IMG/VR virus record: IMGVR_UViG_3300026319_000239
Span: 1-21,764 of that record
Direction: 5' to 3' (one strand)
Source: a virus
Length of the DNA stretch: 21,764 bases
Part shown: piece after piece, positions 6,227 through 13,477 of the stretch
Layout: every line of letters starts with the position of its first letter
How positions within the stretch are numbered: position 1 is the first letter of the stretch
Notes under the pieces: generated by a model
The model's input: only the letters and a program-made list of their open reading frames with translations
What the model was told of the DNA's origin: nothing
The model's database searches: none
Program-made: the position numbers and the translations under genes

Positions 6227-7251
6227 TCTCTCTTTTTCCGATTTGCTATCTGCACAAAGGGTGCGCCCGGGCTTTGTTTGATTGCGCTTGGTTCCGGTGT
6301 AACCCCGAGCTCACCGCAAAGCTTTTCGTAGGCATCTTTAGAGATCGGCCCGGCCGCGTGAATGATATGCTCGAGCCCGTCCCGGATCGCTTCCGGATTA
6401 TCCACATAACTCTTCGCCGCAAGGATCAAGGCACCGGGTTCGACATAGTAATTTTTGCGGCCTGGCATCAGACGGAGCCCGGCAACCTTGCGCTCATGCA
6501 ACAAATGTTCCACCGCAGCCGCACGGGCTTCCGGTTCGTACCGTTCCCGGATTGCTTTGCAGCCGGCAATGAAGGGCCCAAGCAAATCCGGGCTCTCTTT
6601 TACTTTCTGAAAATCGAGCGCGCCCGCCGGCACCTTTAAACTGTAGCCGGCCAAAGCCCGTTGAGCCGGGCAATCGTCAAAATTGGCGCACCATTTGCAA
6701 AACTGGTTGGGAGTCGGGAACGCCGGGAAATCATAACGAGCTTTTTCGTCCGCAATTATTTTCCGGGCTTCCTCGAGTGTGAACCGATACCAAACCAATC
6801 GTTGTGCATCGTAGTAGATAAGAACCGCGGTCCAAGAAACCGCAAACCCGGCTTCCATCTGGCCGAGGGCATAGGCCGCCATCTGCAAAAAATAATCCCA
6901 TTCTTGGCCGCTCTTCCAATCGATCGAAGTGAGTTGGTCCGGGATAATCGCATCGCATTCGGCCGGGTTGGGAAAATCCGGAACCAGGATCGAACAAGCC
7001 TTGCGACCGGTTAAAATCTTGTGGCCACGGGCCCGGTCCCGGGTTTCCCGGATCGCATACTCGAACGGTAACCGCCATTCCTTCGGGACTACCACATCAT
7101 CGCCGGCGAAATAAGCTCGAAGGAGACTATCGATCGACCCACCCCGTTTAGCTGGTGGGCCAATCGGCTTCCCCTTGAACCAACTACAAAGAGCCAGTTT
7201 ATCGAGGTTAGAGGGCCGGAGCGTAGCCCTTGGCAGCTTGACCGTAGTCAT
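6223..7251 (-). CDS. PD-(D/E)XK nuclease with Fe-S cysteines (Cas4/RecB-like)
   Basis: A 342-residue exonuclease-like protein. The catalytic core is readable: D100 in ECDAIIPDQL, then D111-W-K113 (SIDWKSG), then the QMAAYALG helix (Q123, Y127) of RecB-type nucleases. Four cysteines are placed as in Cas4 and AddB: C22 near the N-terminus and C185, C188 and C194 (CKWCANFDDC) after the core, consistent with a 4Fe-4S cluster. The region after 200 is helical and may be an added domain. Such genes in phages pair with Sak4-like or RecT-like recombinases, resecting ends. The ATG overlaps the Sak4-like stop by 4 bp and the stop overlaps the next start by 4 bp. No Cas genes are nearby. Confidence 0.82.
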   Translation of the reverse strand: MTTVKLPRATLRPSNLDKLALCSWFKGKPIGPPAKRGGSIDSLLRAYFAGDDVVVPKEWRLPFEYAIRETRDRARGHKILTGRKACSILVPDFPNPAECDAIIPDQLTSIDWKSGQEWDYFLQMAAYALGQMEAGFAVSWTAVLIYYDAQRLVWYRFTLEEARKIIADEKARYDFPAFPTPNQFCKWCANFDDCPAQRALAGYSLKVPAGALDFQKVKESPDLLGPFIAGCKAIRERYEPEARAAAVEHLLHERKVAGLRLMPGRKNYYVEPGALILAAKSYVDNPEAIRDGLEHIIHAAGPISKDAYEKLCGELGVTPEPSAIKQSPGAPFVQIANRKKRE

Positions 7252-8255
7252 GCCGCGACCGGTTCCTTGGGTTCTTCCTGGGCGGATTTAGCAGCCTCGG
7301 CGGCCTGTTCTCGGGCCCAATCTTCCACCACTTGGGCGAACCGTTCCGGCTCGGCTATCACTCGTTCCAAGAAAAACGGCCGTAAAGAGGGGAGTTCGGC
7401 ATCCCGGCCGAGTTCCCCCCGGTGTATGAGAAAGGCTTTGAGCACTTCCGGCTGAATGCCGGCGGTGAGCTCGGAGAATTTTTCGAACAGCGCCGGGCTA
7501 ATCAGGGCCGGCGTAAGGGTGAACAACGGCGCTAGGCCGGCCGGCAATTCGGTTTTGTTTTCAAACGGGATCTCGGCTTCGAGATCATGCCGGTTTTTGG
7601 CGTCAAAGGCCGCGGTGTGCCGAGTGCAAATAATTCGTTTTTCGCCGCCGATTCCAAAGGTCTTTTTTTGGTCGTTGGTGCTAACCGTGGTCCGGTAACT
7701 CAAAAACAGAACGACTTTGGCCCAGCGTTTAACCACCGCGGCCGCTTTCTCCGCAATCCCGAGTTCATAGCGATCGAATCCCTCGGAGAGTTCCGGCGGT
7801 TGTTTCCGTTTCACAATCGAGTGACCGAGCAAAATGACATTGAGCCCTTTGCGGATTAGTTCATCTAGGACCGAAAGCTCGTCTTCAAATTCCTCCCTGA
7901 CCAGAGTGTAACCATCACCCCAGCCGAAATCCGCAATCCTGGCTTTCTTCTTATCGGTGCAAATCTTATCCTCGAGCCAGCTTTCCAACTTTGAAATTGA
8001 ATCGATGGCCATGGTTTGAAAGGGATGACCCTCATGAATGAGTCGATCAATTACCTCATGATATTGCTGGAGTGTGTTAACCTCGATTCGGTTTAAATCG
8101 TAAGTGTCGCTACTTCCTTCTAAATCGAGAATCACCGCTTGCGGAAACAGACTGGCCAAGGTGGTTTTGCCGACTCCTTCCGGCCCATAGATCACGGCTC
8201 GCAGTGCGCCGGCTAATGGGCCGGCCGAAACTAGATCGCTAATTTGTGTAGTCAT
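7248..8255 (-). CDS. Sak4-type RecA-fold recombinase (phage AAA ATPase)
   Basis: A 335-residue P-loop ATPase. Walker A is GPEGVGKT at 24-31, just after a short N-terminus (LRAVIYGP). The strand that follows ends in DLEGSSDTYD. Walker B is MAIDS at 82-86. Later strands include LNVILLGHS and VVLFLSYRT. The alanine- and glutamate-rich C-terminus is typical of phage AAA_24 proteins. Members with this layout are the Sak4 single-strand annealing proteins; they work with a single-strand binding protein and a nuclease, both found in this operon. Start ATG 8255 overlaps the upstream stop as ATGA. The C-terminal domain (about 230-310) has no recognised motif. Confidence 0.85.
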   Translation of the reverse strand: MTTQISDLVSAGPLAGALRAVIYGPEGVGKTTLASLFPQAVILDLEGSSDTYDLNRIEVNTLQQYHEVIDRLIHEGHPFQTMAIDSISKLESWLEDKICTDKKKARIADFGWGDGYTLVREEFEDELSVLDELIRKGLNVILLGHSIVKRKQPPELSEGFDRYELGIAEKAAAVVKRWAKVVLFLSYRTTVSTNDQKKTFGIGGEKRIICTRHTAAFDAKNRHDLEAEIPFENKTELPAGLAPLFTLTPALISPALFEKFSELTAGIQPEVLKAFLIHRGELGRDAELPSLRPFFLERVIAEPERFAQVVEDWAREQAAEAAKSAQEEPKEPVAA

Positions 8256-9977: not shown

Positions 9978-10191
9978 ATCGGCCTTTGGCTTTTTCCTTT
10001 TCGAACCAATCGCGGACCGTGTCTTCTTTGACCCCAAAAAAATCGGCGATCTTTTTCAATTCGAGATCGGAAGCATCATCACTGAGAGCAAATGCTAAGA
10101 GTCGAGCGAGCCGGCCAGGCTTAAGAAAGCTTCGCGCTTTTTTCTTATCTTCAGCCGTGGCTAAAGCTAATAGCCTTTCGAAAGCATCCAT
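9958..10191 (-). CDS. small helix-turn-helix protein, first gene of the early operon
   Basis: A 77-residue basic protein. The second half (LELKKIADFFGVKEDTVRDW, then FEKEKAKGRFRPKR) is a helix-turn-helix of the terminase-small-subunit or sigma-like type with a basic tail. The N-terminal half is helical (ERLLALATAEDKKKARSFL). AGGGG lies about 12 nt upstream of the ATG. As the first gene of the leftward operon next to the control region, it is likely a Cro-like or early regulator. The phased repeats over its 3' end are candidate targets of it or of the next HTH protein. Confidence 0.6.
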   Translation of the reverse strand: MDAFERLLALATAEDKKKARSFLKPGRLARLLAFALSDDASDLELKKIADFFGVKEDTVRDWFEKEKAKGRFRPKRP

Positions 10192-10237
10192 TCGAAAGAG
10201 ATCCCCTAGAGAGGTGTAATGTTTTAGTTTATTAAAA

Positions 10238-10257
10238 GTTCAGGGGAAAACCTGAAC
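10238..10257 (-). terminator. hairpin before the early operon, minus strand
   Basis: GTTCAGG and CCTGAAC form a perfect 7-bp stem with a 6-nt loop. On the minus strand it is followed by TTTTAAT. It lies 46 bp upstream of the first early gene. It could act as a leader terminator or attenuator for leftward transcription, or as an operator dyad. The short T-run makes it weak as a terminator. Confidence 0.4.
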
Positions 10258-10280
10258 GGGGAAGAAAATTACATTTGCAC

Positions 10281-10309
10281 TTGCGATTTCAAAACAGTCT
10301 CGCTAATAG
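10281..10309 (+). promoter_or_regulatory. candidate rightward promoter of the small RNA
   Basis: TTGCGA at 10281-10286 and TAATAG at 10304-10309 are separated by 17 bp, matching sigma-70 spacing but with weak consensus boxes. The pair TTTGCAC (10274-10280) and GTGCAAA (10309-10315) brackets it as an inverted repeat. Starting here, an RNA would end at the terminator at about 10431. It is inferred only from spacing and context. Confidence 0.35.
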
Positions 10310-10310
10310 T

Positions 10311-10431
10311 GCAAACGTCAGACAAAACATCACTTCCTGTGATGCACTGGTTTGCTGCAAGCTAAGGGAAAACTTGTAAGATCGGCTGAAAGGTGATTCT
10401 GAGAAAGCTACCTTCAGCCGGTCATTTTTTT
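10311..10431 (+). ncRNA. candidate structured small RNA in the control region
   Basis: No reasonable reading frame exists on either strand, yet the stretch is structured. GCAAAC (10311-10316) can pair with GTTTGC (10350-10355). Within it, CATCAC (10328-10333) and GTGATG (10339-10344) form a perfect 6-bp hairpin with loop TTCCT. The 3' end is a strong intrinsic terminator. The order, candidate promoter, nested hairpins and terminator with a T-run, is that of a bacterial small RNA of about 120 nt. Because the strand is opposite to the leftward early operon, it could also be a leader or antisense RNA. No homologous family is recognised. Confidence 0.45.
10380..10431 (+). terminator. intrinsic terminator, rightward
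   Basis: The 5' arm at 10380-10394 and the 3' arm at 10410-10423 form a stem of about 14 bp (GATCGGCTGAA against TTCAGCCGGTC) with one bulge and a G-T pair. Seven T residues follow at 10425-10431. The T-run is only on the plus-strand side, so it terminates rightward transcription. No plus-strand gene lies upstream in the gap, which supports a non-coding transcript. The remaining stretch 10432-10690 shows no gene and only a small ACCA-a-TGGT dyad. Confidence 0.8.
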
Positions 10432-10695
10432 AGTTAAGGCGGAATCCTCAAAATCGCGAAACCGATTGGAATTTGGAGATTACCCGAGAAAGCCATATTC
10501 ATAAAAAACCAATGGTTAGGGATTGATCCTCACAGGCGGAGATCTCGACCCGTTTAATCGGTAGCCCGTACCATTCGAGCGAATGGGCCGAACACCTTCG
10601 GATGGGGGAAAAATCACCGAGACGATAAAGAACGAATCGGGCAAAATTCAAGCAATTTCATTTAGAGCAGATAAAATTTCTGGAAAGCACAAATC

Positions 10696-10748
10696 GTGCA
10701 AACCAAGTGCAAAACACGGTGTTGTCACGCAATTGTTGCAATGCAACA
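10696..10748. promoter_or_regulatory. operator-like repeats and palindrome before the RHH gene
   Basis: GTGCAAA is repeated at 10696-10702 and 10707-10713, 11 bp apart (one helical turn). A palindrome, TGTTGCA-a-TGCAACA (10734-10748), lies 23 bp before the start of the RHH-like gene. The same heptamer occurs as an inverted pair around the small RNA promoter. GTGCAAA also occurs by chance inside genes of this window, so the clustering, not the word itself, is the evidence. Confidence 0.4.
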
Positions 10749-10771
10749 TTTCAGAATTCTTCACTAGGGCA

Positions 10772-11053
10772 ATGAAAGCGCGTTCTAGTAAATATAAACC
10801 CAACATGCCCGGTCAAAATGTTGGTGGCTTTCAAATGACCCCTGAAGAAAGAGAACGATTTGACCGAGCTCTCAGAGATCGAGGTTACGCTAACCGCCCG
10901 CAATTCTTGCGGGCGGTTGCCCTCCAATTTATTAAACAAGTCGAAAGCGGCGAATACCCGGATTGGCCGATCCGCTTTGTGCCGCGGCCAGATGTCGAAA
11001 TAAAAAAGGCGCCAACCAAACGCGGGCGCCCAAAAGGGAAAAAGAAGGGTTAG
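10772..11053 (+). CDS. ribbon-helix-helix-like regulator, candidate lysogeny repressor
   Basis: The 93-residue reading from ATG 10772 begins with a short basic arm (MKARSSKYKPN). It then has a strand-like segment and two helices (QMTPEERERFDRALRDRGYA, NRPQFLRAVALQFIKQ). This fits the beta-helix-helix order of Arc/MetJ-type repressors, including the 'N-R-x-x-F-x-R' turn before helix B. The C-terminus is a lysine/arginine- and proline-rich tail ending in KGKKK. An upstream extension to 10583 would translate the operator-like repeats and reads poorly. It faces the early operon across the control region, the usual position for a lysogeny repressor. Its role and the start codon are inferred. Confidence 0.6.
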   Translation: MKARSSKYKPNMPGQNVGGFQMTPEERERFDRALRDRGYANRPQFLRAVALQFIKQVESGEYPDWPIRFVPRPDVEIKKAPTKRGRPKGKKKG

Positions 11054-11059
11054 GCCGCT

Positions 11060-11242
11060 TCAATCGCTCGGTGGGTAATATTCAGCGAAAAAGTCATAGA
11101 GCAGTAGCGCTCGGTCTTCAGCTTCGAGCGTAATTCCTAATTGCTTCGCTGCCTTATTAGCGAGTTCGCCGGTTGGAGTTTGGCCATTATCCATTTCCAA
11201 TATTGCTAAACAAAGTTGTCTTGTCTGTTCGTTGTTTATCAT
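11060..11242 (-). CDS. small protein coupled to the integrase gene
   Basis: A 60-residue acidic, helical protein (EQTRQLCLAILEMDNGQTPT, then KQLGITLEAEDRALLLYDF). Its ATG overlaps the integrase stop by 4 bp (ATGA), and GAGG lies 4 nt upstream, giving good translational coupling. It ends 6 bp from the convergent regulator gene. No family recognised. Small proteins downstream of phage integrases can be excision or directionality partners, but this one is acidic and shows no DNA-binding motif. Confidence 0.6.
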   Translation of the reverse strand: MINNEQTRQLCLAILEMDNGQTPTGELANKAAKQLGITLEAEDRALLLYDFFAEYYPPSD

Positions 11243-12486
11243 GCTGCCTCGATTTGTAGGATCTTGCCCGCGGCCGGAATCAAAGGACCATAAGGCACAC
11301 TGTTAAACCATTCCTGCCCCGCATCCGGCTTCAAAGTTTGGACGTAATAGCGCCGTATCGTTGATTCGAGATCCCCCATTGCCTTGGCAACGTCGCCCGG
11401 TGATCGGCAGCTTTGGCCATAACTCGCATAAGAATTCCGAAGTCCATTATCGGGTACCTCGATTCCGAGCTTGTCCAAAAGTTCACCATTGAGCCGTTGG
11501 AATTGAGTTTGCGAAATCTCGATAATCGGACCTGATTTTTTTTGAACCATGAACAACCATTCAAAAGCAGCCGGTTCTAATGGAATATAGCGTTTCCGGT
11601 TTTCTTTATTGGTTTGCTTCGCAACATCGTCGCGAATGATAATCAATTTTTCACGCCAAAGAATATCTGCCCATTCGATCGTTGGATCATTTTTATATGA
11701 AGAAATCATCTCACAACGCCGGATTCCAGCCAGACCGCCCAAAACATAAAATGCGAGCAATCCTTTGTAACGTTCGGTAATTTTTTTATCTTCTTCTAAG
11801 GCATCGCGATCAGCAAATTTTGCGATTGGTTCGCAACTGCCACAAACCGAAAGAATCCGGCGATAATCCTCAATTGATAAAATTTCTGTCTTCGCTCCCC
11901 AACTATCCATTGCCGGAATGTTTTCCATCAGATGGGTTGCCGTATAACCTGATTCCTTCAGCCAAGTCATGAAAACACGAAGATTTTTGCGCTTGGTTTG
12001 TCGAGTGGTTCCCGGTGGCATTGCTCGCAAATAAGTTCGCAATTGTTCGCTTGTAAATTCAATGCATTGAAGAGCACCATGAATATCGCAAAGCTCTTTA
12101 ACATGCCGGCGATAATCCATGATCGTTCGAGGATTTTTTTCCTCATGTTCTAAAGTTTCAATCCAGAGCTCGGCGGCTTCGAGAAGACGCGCTTTTTTCG
12201 TCACACTCAAAACGGTTTTGACGTAATAATTGAGAGCTTCAAAAAGTTGTTCGCCGGAAAGTCCGCGTTTTTGAGCAGAGAGGCAAACTGGGTAATATTC
12301 AGCCAAAAGATCCTGATTGAGTTTGGCTCGTTGTTGGTCCGTAGTCGGCCGCAAAAGTCCCCGAATCCATTCCTCGGCTAGTTCCTTGGTTTTGAAATAT
12401 TTGGCGATTTCTCTCCCGTTTTCGCTGTAGCGGCGAGGGACGAATACCCGATAACAATTACGGGCCGGATAGTGTTTTGCTTTCAT
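11239..12486 (-). CDS. int: tyrosine recombinase (phage integrase)
   Basis: A 415-residue tyrosine recombinase. The N-terminus has an arm-binding-like region (YRVFVPRRYSENG, residues 12-24). A core-binding SAM-like domain follows (about 100-190, with TIMDYRRHVKEL and LRVFMTWLKESG). The catalytic domain shows GLAGIRRCEM (R256, E259), a lysine-rich turn before YIPL (about 290-302), NGLRN (R350), and STIRRYYVQ near 376-383 as the nucleophile Y380 or Y381. Two usual histidines are replaced: the HxxR His by N347, and the Gly-His before the tyrosine by Gly-Asp (G371-D372). It lies next to the tRNA-derived att candidate, and a repeat touches its start. It should integrate the phage at a tRNA-Gln gene. 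Confidence 0.88.
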   Translation of the reverse strand: MKAKHYPARNCYRVFVPRRYSENGREIAKYFKTKELAEEWIRGLLRPTTDQQRAKLNQDLLAEYYPVCLSAQKRGLSGEQLFEALNYYVKTVLSVTKKARLLEAAELWIETLEHEEKNPRTIMDYRRHVKELCDIHGALQCIEFTSEQLRTYLRAMPPGTTRQTKRKNLRVFMTWLKESGYTATHLMENIPAMDSWGAKTEILSIEDYRRILSVCGSCEPIAKFADRDALEEDKKITERYKGLLAFYVLGGLAGIRRCEMISSYKNDPTIEWADILWREKLIIIRDDVAKQTNKENRKRYIPLEPAAFEWLFMVQKKSGPIIEISQTQFQRLNGELLDKLGIEVPDNGLRNSYASYGQSCRSPGDVAKAMGDLESTIRRYYVQTLKPDAGQEWFNSVPYGPLIPAAGKILQIEAA

Positions 12487-12487
12487 T

Positions 12488-12777
12488 TGTAACGGTGCAA
12501 GGGCGCTTGCGTAACTGGATTTGTAGCAGAAAATTTGGCTTTAGCAAGCTGTACCGAGCCGGACGAAGATTAACTATAGCCTCAAAGAACTAAAGAGCCT
12601 CTCCTCTGAGATTAGCTTCTAGACTTGATTCTCGAGGGAACTACCGCGGATGGATTCGAACCATCAAAAGCGCCTCCAAAGGGCGTTTGCGCAATTCTCG
12701 TAACTCGTTGATAATGAATACTTGAGGCTTGCAATCATGTAATCTGTAACGGTTTCGTAACGGCAGAATATAACGGA
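12488..12777 (+). repeat. GTAAC-type repeats flanking the att core (arm-site candidates)
   Basis: Same-orientation words of the form (T/C)GTAAC(G/T)G occur at 12488-12496, 12510-12518, 12699-12707, 12745-12753 and 12756-12764, with a related TATAACGGA at 12769-12777. They lie on both sides of the tRNA-derived core, and the first touches the integrase start. This is the layout of integrase arm-type sites. GTAACGG occurs elsewhere in the window by chance, but three copies within 33 bp are notable. The gene-free stretch 12487-12846 shows nothing else clear. Confidence 0.5.
12641..12686 (-). other. attP: attP candidate: 3' half of a tRNA-Gln(UUG) gene
   Basis: Read on the minus strand this stretch has an anticodon stem-loop (CGCC-CTTTGGA-GGCG, anticodon TTG), a 4-nt variable region, a full T arm (GATGG-TTCGAAT-CCATC), and the 3' acceptor strand CGCGGTA with discriminator G. 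The predicted U1-A72 pair and G73 are typical of tRNA-Gln. The D arm and 5' acceptor strand are absent and CCA is not encoded, so this is not a functional tRNA. Such 3' fragments restore the host tRNA on integration. The anticodon stem halves could be the two core-type sites around a 7-bp overlap. Confidence 0.7.
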
Positions 12778-12846
12778 ATCGGCCGATTCTAGCTCAGAAT
12801 TGCCTTTCCAACCAGCCCTGAAAATGCAATGCGTTTGTTTTGAAAA

Positions 12847-13062
12847 ATGAAGCGCCTACGACCTAAACCTATTATTCACACATCACCCAACTTGATTGAA
12901 CAATTGAAAGCCATAAAAGATAAAAAATATTTGGCGAATTGGGAAATTGGCCAAGCTCTCAAGGTTCATCCGGCAACCGTGATGCATTGGCTTCATGGCA
13001 AATACAAACCCGATGCCGGTTCCCGAAGCAAAATTCAGATTTTTTTGAACAAGCAGAAATGA
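12847..13062 (+). CDS. XRE-like helix-turn-helix protein
   Basis: A 71-residue basic protein. The helix-turn-helix is readable (NWEIGQALKVHPATVMHWLH, then GKYKPDAGSRSKI), the pattern of XRE/Cro-type phage regulators: a turn helix, 'V-H-x-x-T-V', then W-L-x-G-K. The N-terminal 30 residues form a basic arm and helix. It is the first gene of a rightward group of five that ends at the 13939-13976 hairpin. No good ribosome binding site is seen. It likely regulates this operon or the integrase region. Confidence 0.65.
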   Translation: MKRLRPKPIIHTSPNLIEQLKAIKDKKYLANWEIGQALKVHPATVMHWLHGKYKPDAGSRSKIQIFLNKQK

Positions 13063-13065
13063 ATC

Positions 13066-13236
13066 ATGGAATCCAATGATGAATACATTTACCAACTCTT
13101 GGCGCCGTATCTCGGTCAACCAATGACCAAAGAGCTGCAAAAGGAGATCGTTGCGAAATTGCCGATTCCACCCCGGAACTTGACCTACATCGTTCGATTC
13201 GGAATTCTGAGAGTAATCAAAGTGAAACTGCAATGA
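13066..13236 (+). CDS. 56-residue hypothetical protein
   Basis: A short gene 3 bp after the XRE-like gene. The 56-residue product begins MESNDEYIYQLLAPYLGQPM, continues with a helical charged segment (TKELQKEIVAKLPIPPRN), and ends in strands and KVKLQ. Its stop overlaps the next ATG by 4 bp (ATGA), and the junction is duplicated in the next gene pair. The composition and the coupling support a real gene. No function recognised. Confidence 0.6.
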   Translation: MESNDEYIYQLLAPYLGQPMTKELQKEIVAKLPIPPRNLTYIVRFGILRVIKVKLQ

Positions 13237-13477
13237 ACAATTTATCGGATTGGGTCATCTGGAGCGAGGAGCACGCTGCCTGGTGGGCTCCAGCCCGATG
13301 GGGTTATACCGAGAGCCTCGCCGCCGCTGGCCGCTACAGTCAAGAGGAGGCGCAAGCCATCTGTGAGAGCGCTAACCATTATTGTGAGCCCGGGACTTGG
13401 AGAGAATGTGCGTTTCCGGATCCGATAAAAGACCACTTCGACCCCAAGGTAAAACTGAAATGAACAATTTATCGGAT
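13225..13477 (+). repeat. duplicated 26-bp gene junction
   Basis: The segment 13225-13250 and the segment 13452-13477 are identical except for one base. Each contains the end of one gene (Lys-Val-Lys-Leu, stop) and the start of the next (MNNLSD) in the same ATGA overlap. The similarity extends a few codons upstream at reduced identity. The two units are 227 bp apart. Confidence 0.85.
13233..13463 (+). CDS. small tryptophan-rich phage protein
   Basis: A 76-residue protein starting MNNLSDWVIWSEEHAAWW. The pattern (W-x-x-W-S-x-E-H-x-x-W-W, then GYTESLAAAGRYSQEEA) recurs in small proteins of many phages and in bacterial genomes with prophages; its function is not established. Cysteines follow (CESANHYCEPGTWRECAF). 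It starts in an ATGA overlap and ends in another; the two overlaps are nearly identical in sequence. Confidence 0.7.
   Translation: MNNLSDWVIWSEEHAAWWAPARWGYTESLAAAGRYSQEEAQAICESANHYCEPGTWRECAFPDPIKDHFDPKVKLK

Follow-up and report, generated by a model that had tools for sequence, protein, structure and literature searches.

A possible two-way terminator cluster in the divergent early/lysogeny control region of a temperate phage

Introduction

What is a strong intrinsic terminator doing on the plus strand of a phage control region when no plus-strand gene lies upstream of it? The question arises at positions 10238-10431 of a 21.8-kb virus record (IMGVR_UViG_3300026319_000239; 21,764 nt), the whole of which was analyzed and is called the window below. 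An initial annotation had read this stretch as a candidate small RNA; here we compare it with a related phage, weigh that reading against others and propose, tentatively, a simpler role.

Results

A gene-free gap shared with a single relative

The initial annotation described the stretch as gene-free, and this description stands: the gap between the divergent genes (10192-10771), whose starts lie at 10191 (leftward) and ~10772 (rightward), holds no convincing gene. A small plus-strand ORF within it (MHWFAAS) was set aside, having no conserved counterpart in the relative described below. Left of 10191, the genes of the leftward early operon include those for an AAA helicase-like protein, a primase-like protein, a Sak4-like ATPase and an excisionase-like HTH protein, replication genes being present among them. 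The coordinates of all features are collected in Table 1.

Screening viral contigs for matches to the integrase, to the HTH and 93-aa proteins and to terminator patterns yielded a single relative, IMGVR_UViG_3300026319_000002 (42 kb; hereafter G001), in which the flanking proteins are ~80% identical, and all statements on conservation rest on these two sequences. The Sak4-like protein as query found no relatives in the viral contigs; DNA and protein searches of phage and plasmid collections with the region and its flanking proteins gave no match, nor did the integrase or the 93-aa protein when run against genome contigs. Two other candidates were discarded: a terminator-pattern match (L013) in an unrelated contig, beside a transposase-like gene, was judged a coincidence, and a second contig (L017) offered only a 12-residue match without a corresponding gene.

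The two phages also differ elsewhere. The Sak4-like ATPase (7248-8255) has no matching stretch in G001 by blastn, a possible recombination-gene swap, and positions 13232-13424 are 77% identical to G001 12062-11871, in the opposite orientation and at a different place, which suggests that a small gene near the integrase has moved. Weak similarity of the integrase to Akkermansia phage Chantilly (21.5%, E 7e-4) and of the Sak4-like protein to Akkermansia phage Chambord (32%; streptococcal phages match better) hints at a Verrucomicrobiota host, which we take only as a lead.

Table 1. Positions of the features discussed, in the window unless G001 is given
Feature	Position	Strand	Remarks
HTH protein gene, 77 aa	9958-10191	-	leftward early operon, gene no. 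1; G001 counterpart 79% identical
Hairpin with T4 tail	10238-10257	-	proposed leader attenuator; not conserved
Inverted GTGCAAA pair	10271-10318 (arms 10271-10281 and 10308-10318)	.	spans the promoter of the initial annotation; operator-like
TTTGCACTTGCG motif	10274-10285	+	kept in G001 as TTTGTACTTGCG; perhaps a promoter or operator element
Promoter-like pair TTGCGA-17-TAATAG	10281-10309	+	proposed by the initial annotation; not supported
Terminator-like hairpin	stem 10328-10333/10339-10344, U4 from 10327-10324	-	"nested hairpin" of the initial annotation
Intrinsic terminator	hairpin 10380-10423, T7 10425-10431	+	15 outer pairs in fold, about -23 kcal/mol
Two GTGCAAA copies, 11 bp apart	10696-10713	+	upstream of the rightward gene; operator-like
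Rightward gene, 93 aa	~10772-11053	+	80% identical in G001; possible ribbon-helix-helix regulator
Leftward terminator-like hairpin	11007-11031	-	3' end of the rightward gene; G001 counterpart 11817-11845
Integrase gene	11239-12486	-	right of the lone rightward gene
GTACAAAA-N5-TTTTGTAC palindrome	G001 11103-11123	.	operator-like; beside the opposed terminators of G001, as the GTGCAAA copies are in the window (shared form GTRCAAA)
Minus-strand hairpin, different sequence, U5	G001 about 11152-11171	-	same relative place
Terminator counterpart	G001 11193-11232	same strand	same stem, same place, between the same two genes

Predicted opposed stop signals on the two strands

Most of the gap fails to align between the window and G001, but the stretch from a TTTGYACTTGCG motif through the terminator does so better than 1000 of 1000 shuffles. 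The strong plus-strand terminator called by the initial annotation at 10380-10431 is borne out, keeping its stem, strand and position in G001. It has the G+C-rich hairpin and following U tract of an intrinsic terminator and is the top-scoring T5+ terminator of the 21.8-kb window, as its counterpart is in the 42-kb G001, in a strict scan that replaced an earlier permissive one with far too many matches. When the whole window is shuffled, the simple stem score of 10380-10423 is equalled in ~4 of 30 cases, so it is the conserved position and stem that provide real evidence for the terminator, which we infer to be maintained by selection. The further claim that some plus-strand transcript has to terminate at this point draws support from the strength of the terminator, its retention in G001 and the absence of an upstream plus-strand gene, which together imply either a short rightward transcript or antisense read-through. 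The minus side of this hairpin has a T-poor tail in the window and in G001, so a single hairpin would not serve both directions.

A second, putative stop signal, facing the other way, lies just to the left. What the initial annotation listed as a nested hairpin has a minus-strand, terminator-like nature in both phages that it overlooked. Such minus-strand hairpins occur in 0.8% (window) and 1.5% (G001) of shuffles, by a criterion set after seeing them, and for that reason we count the hairpin with its U tract in both phages as moderate evidence. Given the U4 and U5 hairpins and the plus-strand terminator, the element that is kept is a pair of opposed stop signals.

The hairpin at 10238-10257 fared differently. 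It exists on the minus strand as the initial annotation had it, but its proposed role as attenuator finds no counterpart in G001, where a T-tailed hairpin is absent at that place. A direct repeat, GGGAAAACCTG/GGGAAAACTTG, occurs at 10244-10254 and 10366-10376, and the linker of the putative plus-strand RNA could pair with the loop of this minus-strand hairpin through 10 Watson-Crick pairs and one G-U; no equivalent of the repeat was seen in G001.

A two-way terminator cluster as the preferred reading

Our leading explanation, plausible rather than probable, is that the divergent early/lysogeny control region contains here a compact cluster of terminators acting in both directions, or insulator. 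Polymerase heading right, whether launched at a rightward or bidirectional promoter close to the GTRCAAA sites or reading through in antisense, would be halted at ~10431, short of the 93-aa regulator gene, and leftward polymerase from the integrase side would be halted near 10324, short of the early (replication/recombination) operon. The two transcription units would thereby be insulated from each other, and a plus-strand RNA of at most ~125 nt would arise as a by-product.

Both hairpins carry U tracts, and their strands and arrangement are kept in G001. That the plus-strand terminator holds its stem, strand and position in a gap that mostly cannot be aligned supports an insulator, and minus-strand hairpins of unrelated sequence, ending in U4 or U5 at the same relative place, are what one would expect if the stop signal, and not a base-pairing body, were under selection. 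Both phages also have a leftward terminator-like hairpin where the rightward gene ends, which favors an insulator as well. Against it, the minus-strand hairpins are modest (6 bp, with 4 and 5 U), and the terminator stands ~340 nt from the rightward gene, farther than an insulator requires. Termination at these hairpins in the host, the transcript starts and insulation as the selected function are presumed throughout. Back-to-back intrinsic terminators are expected between convergent genes; two opposed hairpin-and-U stops likewise share a short stretch here, but between divergent genes. Two-way promoters are reported throughout prokaryotes (PMC12825309), so that a gap of this kind can be expected to see stray divergent transcription. 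An insulator is the simplest reading that uses both hairpins.

A possible antisense RNA acting on the leftward leader

The plus-strand transcript could instead have a function of its own. A functional antisense RNA of ~10310-10431 might pair with the leftward early-operon leader, causing termination at the minus-strand hairpin, by countertranscript attenuation as with pIP501 RNAIII, a reading that we consider possible though doubtful. A changing body beside constant stop signals is predicted by an insulator and equally by a cis-antisense RNA, whose body is free to change because its target is the opposite strand, and this rival therefore stays alive. It also agrees with the finding that in both phages the opposed terminators surround a shared hairpin, and with the replication genes in the leftward operon.

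Working analogues exist in pIP501 CopR/RNAIII (PMC4981023), the closest, and pMV158 CopG/RNAII (PMC4485353), which each pair a small DNA-binding protein with a short countertranscript on the replication-gene mRNA; pIP501 RNAIII, of 136 nt, acts by transcriptional attenuation (PMC4981023). The small possible regulator, operator-like repeats and opposed terminators described here could support the same logic, whereas the gene order differs, the fold of the regulator comes from a low-confidence model and any antisense effect here is putative.

The evidence on transcription weighs against antisense attenuation. The 17-bp spaced promoter-like pair placed at 10281-10309 by the initial annotation proved weak: it matches at 4/6 plus 3/6 positions (7/12), 33 hexamer pairs on the plus strand of this gap score at least 7/12, and a sigma-70-type scan of 10100-10800, by rules that may not be the host's, found none above threshold where 1.0 would be expected by chance. 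Leftward candidates are weak and not common to the window and G001, leaving neither strand with a supported promoter. Whether the RNA is antisense to the leftward leader at all hinges on where the leftward promoter lies, because a start left of ~10310, which may be the case, would mean no overlap with the plus-strand transcript.

The body of the putative RNA tells a mixed story. Hairpins are present at ~10310-10355, close to the nested hairpins annotated at 10311-10355, but in the window the segment 10305-10379 folds no better than shuffles (z -1.1, equalled by 68 of 500), a further point against a functional antisense RNA; the corresponding segment of G001 is more stable than its shuffles (z -2.8). 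Between comparable landmarks the two bodies are unrelated in sequence, 75 nt in the window and 46 nt in G001, with a hairpin in each, and the comparison revealed no conserved antiterminator such as attenuation would use. Rfam, which the initial annotation had named as a check, gave no family for the whole window at gathering cut-offs; with relaxed thresholds nothing exceeded the cut-off in the window or G001, and no relevant match, a ctRNA included, was found in the window. The best relevant sub-threshold match, ctRNA_pGA1 on G001 (23.9 of 45 bits, E 0.016), speaks for antisense attenuation. The initial annotation's functional small RNA in an RNA switch thus finds no recognizable promoter, Rfam match above threshold, conserved body or common trans target (see below), and the attenuator it invoked is absent from G001; we regard a small regulatory RNA here as possible.

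Operator-like sites and the rightward gene

Four copies of GTGCAAA stand beside the terminators, at 10274 (inverted), 10309, 10696 and 10707, and none of 2000 shuffles contained as many, the motif having been chosen after looking. These sites look like operators and are perhaps bound by the 93-aa protein. An AlphaFold2 model of this protein has a strand-helix-helix order (mean pLDDT 55), which suggests, at low confidence, a ribbon-helix-helix fold; there is a weak NikR match (E 0.14), and no Pfam or PDB sequence match was found. In-frame conservation with G001 extends through 10731-10771, upstream of the ATG at 10772, and G001 carries AAG in place of this ATG; the start of the gene may accordingly lie farther upstream, at TTG or another codon.

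A fuller version of antisense control, which we think unlikely, would have the early replication operon run like plasmid copy control, with a small DNA-binding repressor at the GTRCAAA operators and a terminator-ended antisense RNA whose hairpin mirrors the leftward-leader attenuator.

The same stretch could also serve the rightward gene, as a leader attenuator whose transcript starts near 10310, usually stops at 10431 and conditionally reads through ~340 nt into the 93-aa gene. The order is the same and the spacing similar in both phages (about 300-350 nt from terminator to gene), but the operator-like repeats at 10696-10713, directly upstream, suggest that the gene has its own promoter there, and since the intervening 300 nt are not conserved and the antiterminator sought above is also missing for this reading, we find it decidedly improbable.

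Trans-acting RNA and attachment-site readings

As a trans-acting small RNA pairing with host or phage mRNAs, the transcript would have the general layout of such RNAs (hairpin, A-rich linker and terminator with a U7 tail), but its linker and hairpin sequences differ between phages with ~80% identical proteins, and a ranking of duplexes gave no shared or outstanding target (best z about -2.7 among 30 genes in the window and -3.4 among 55 in G001), making this very unlikely. That the feature is instead a DNA-level element, for example an attP with a terminator captured from the host, is scarcely credible: a gene-less terminator could be a host 3' end and the integrase gene is near, but an attP should copy a host gene 3' end, often of a tRNA, and 10238-10431 holds no tRNA piece, whereas a tRNA 3' half and repeats occur upstream of the integrase, within a block of non-coding sequence that is conserved.

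This block of 250 bp (12600-12848), 76% identical in G001, contains on the minus strand an apparent tRNA T-arm and acceptor strand at about 12640-12685 (T-loop 12652-12662). The tRNA 3' half reads GATGGTTCGAATCCATC followed by CGCGGTAG in the window and CTTGGTTCGAATCCAAG followed by CGCGGTAG in G001, the T-arm differing between the phages and the acceptor strand being identical. Repeated TNTGTAACGG motifs are also present, and no RNA fold signal was found in the block. It is likely the attP, over 2 kb from the terminator cluster; an attP at the cluster itself was rejected with the tRNA 3' half lying elsewhere, and a tRNA gene is the likely integration target of the phage. Three near-copies of TTTGTAACGG occur at 12486-12495, 12743-12752 and 12754-12763, two of them 11 bp apart, and are candidate integrase or excisionase arm sites.

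Discussion

The transcript implied here can be compared with known phage RNAs. λ OOP RNA and P22 sar RNA are short phage antisense RNAs of 68-77 nt, and OOP RNA runs opposite to the early operon that it overlaps (reviewed in PMC12197685). The implied transcript is also short, opposite to an early operon and situated in a control region, but OOP and sar are mapped transcripts with coding targets (cII, ant), whereas ours is implied from sequence and overlaps no coding target. In the RNA-based immunity of P4 CI and P1 c4 (PMC4825925, PMC12197685), P4 CI RNA stops replication-gene transcription early; it is released by processing of an untranslated transcript and base-pairs with the flanking seqA and seqC (PMC4825925, PMC12197685). 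RNA-based control in an immunity region would be the likeness, but the candidate described here and the operon are on opposite strands, and no target boxes were seen.

If antisense attenuation were true, it would amount to an RNA-based lysogeny/replication switch on the plan of plasmid copy control, in a lineage of phages that has seen no experimental work. If the feature is an insulator, as we tentatively prefer, it would be a neat if unremarkable case of a compact temperate phage keeping its integrase unit, its regulator and its lytic early operon transcriptionally separate.
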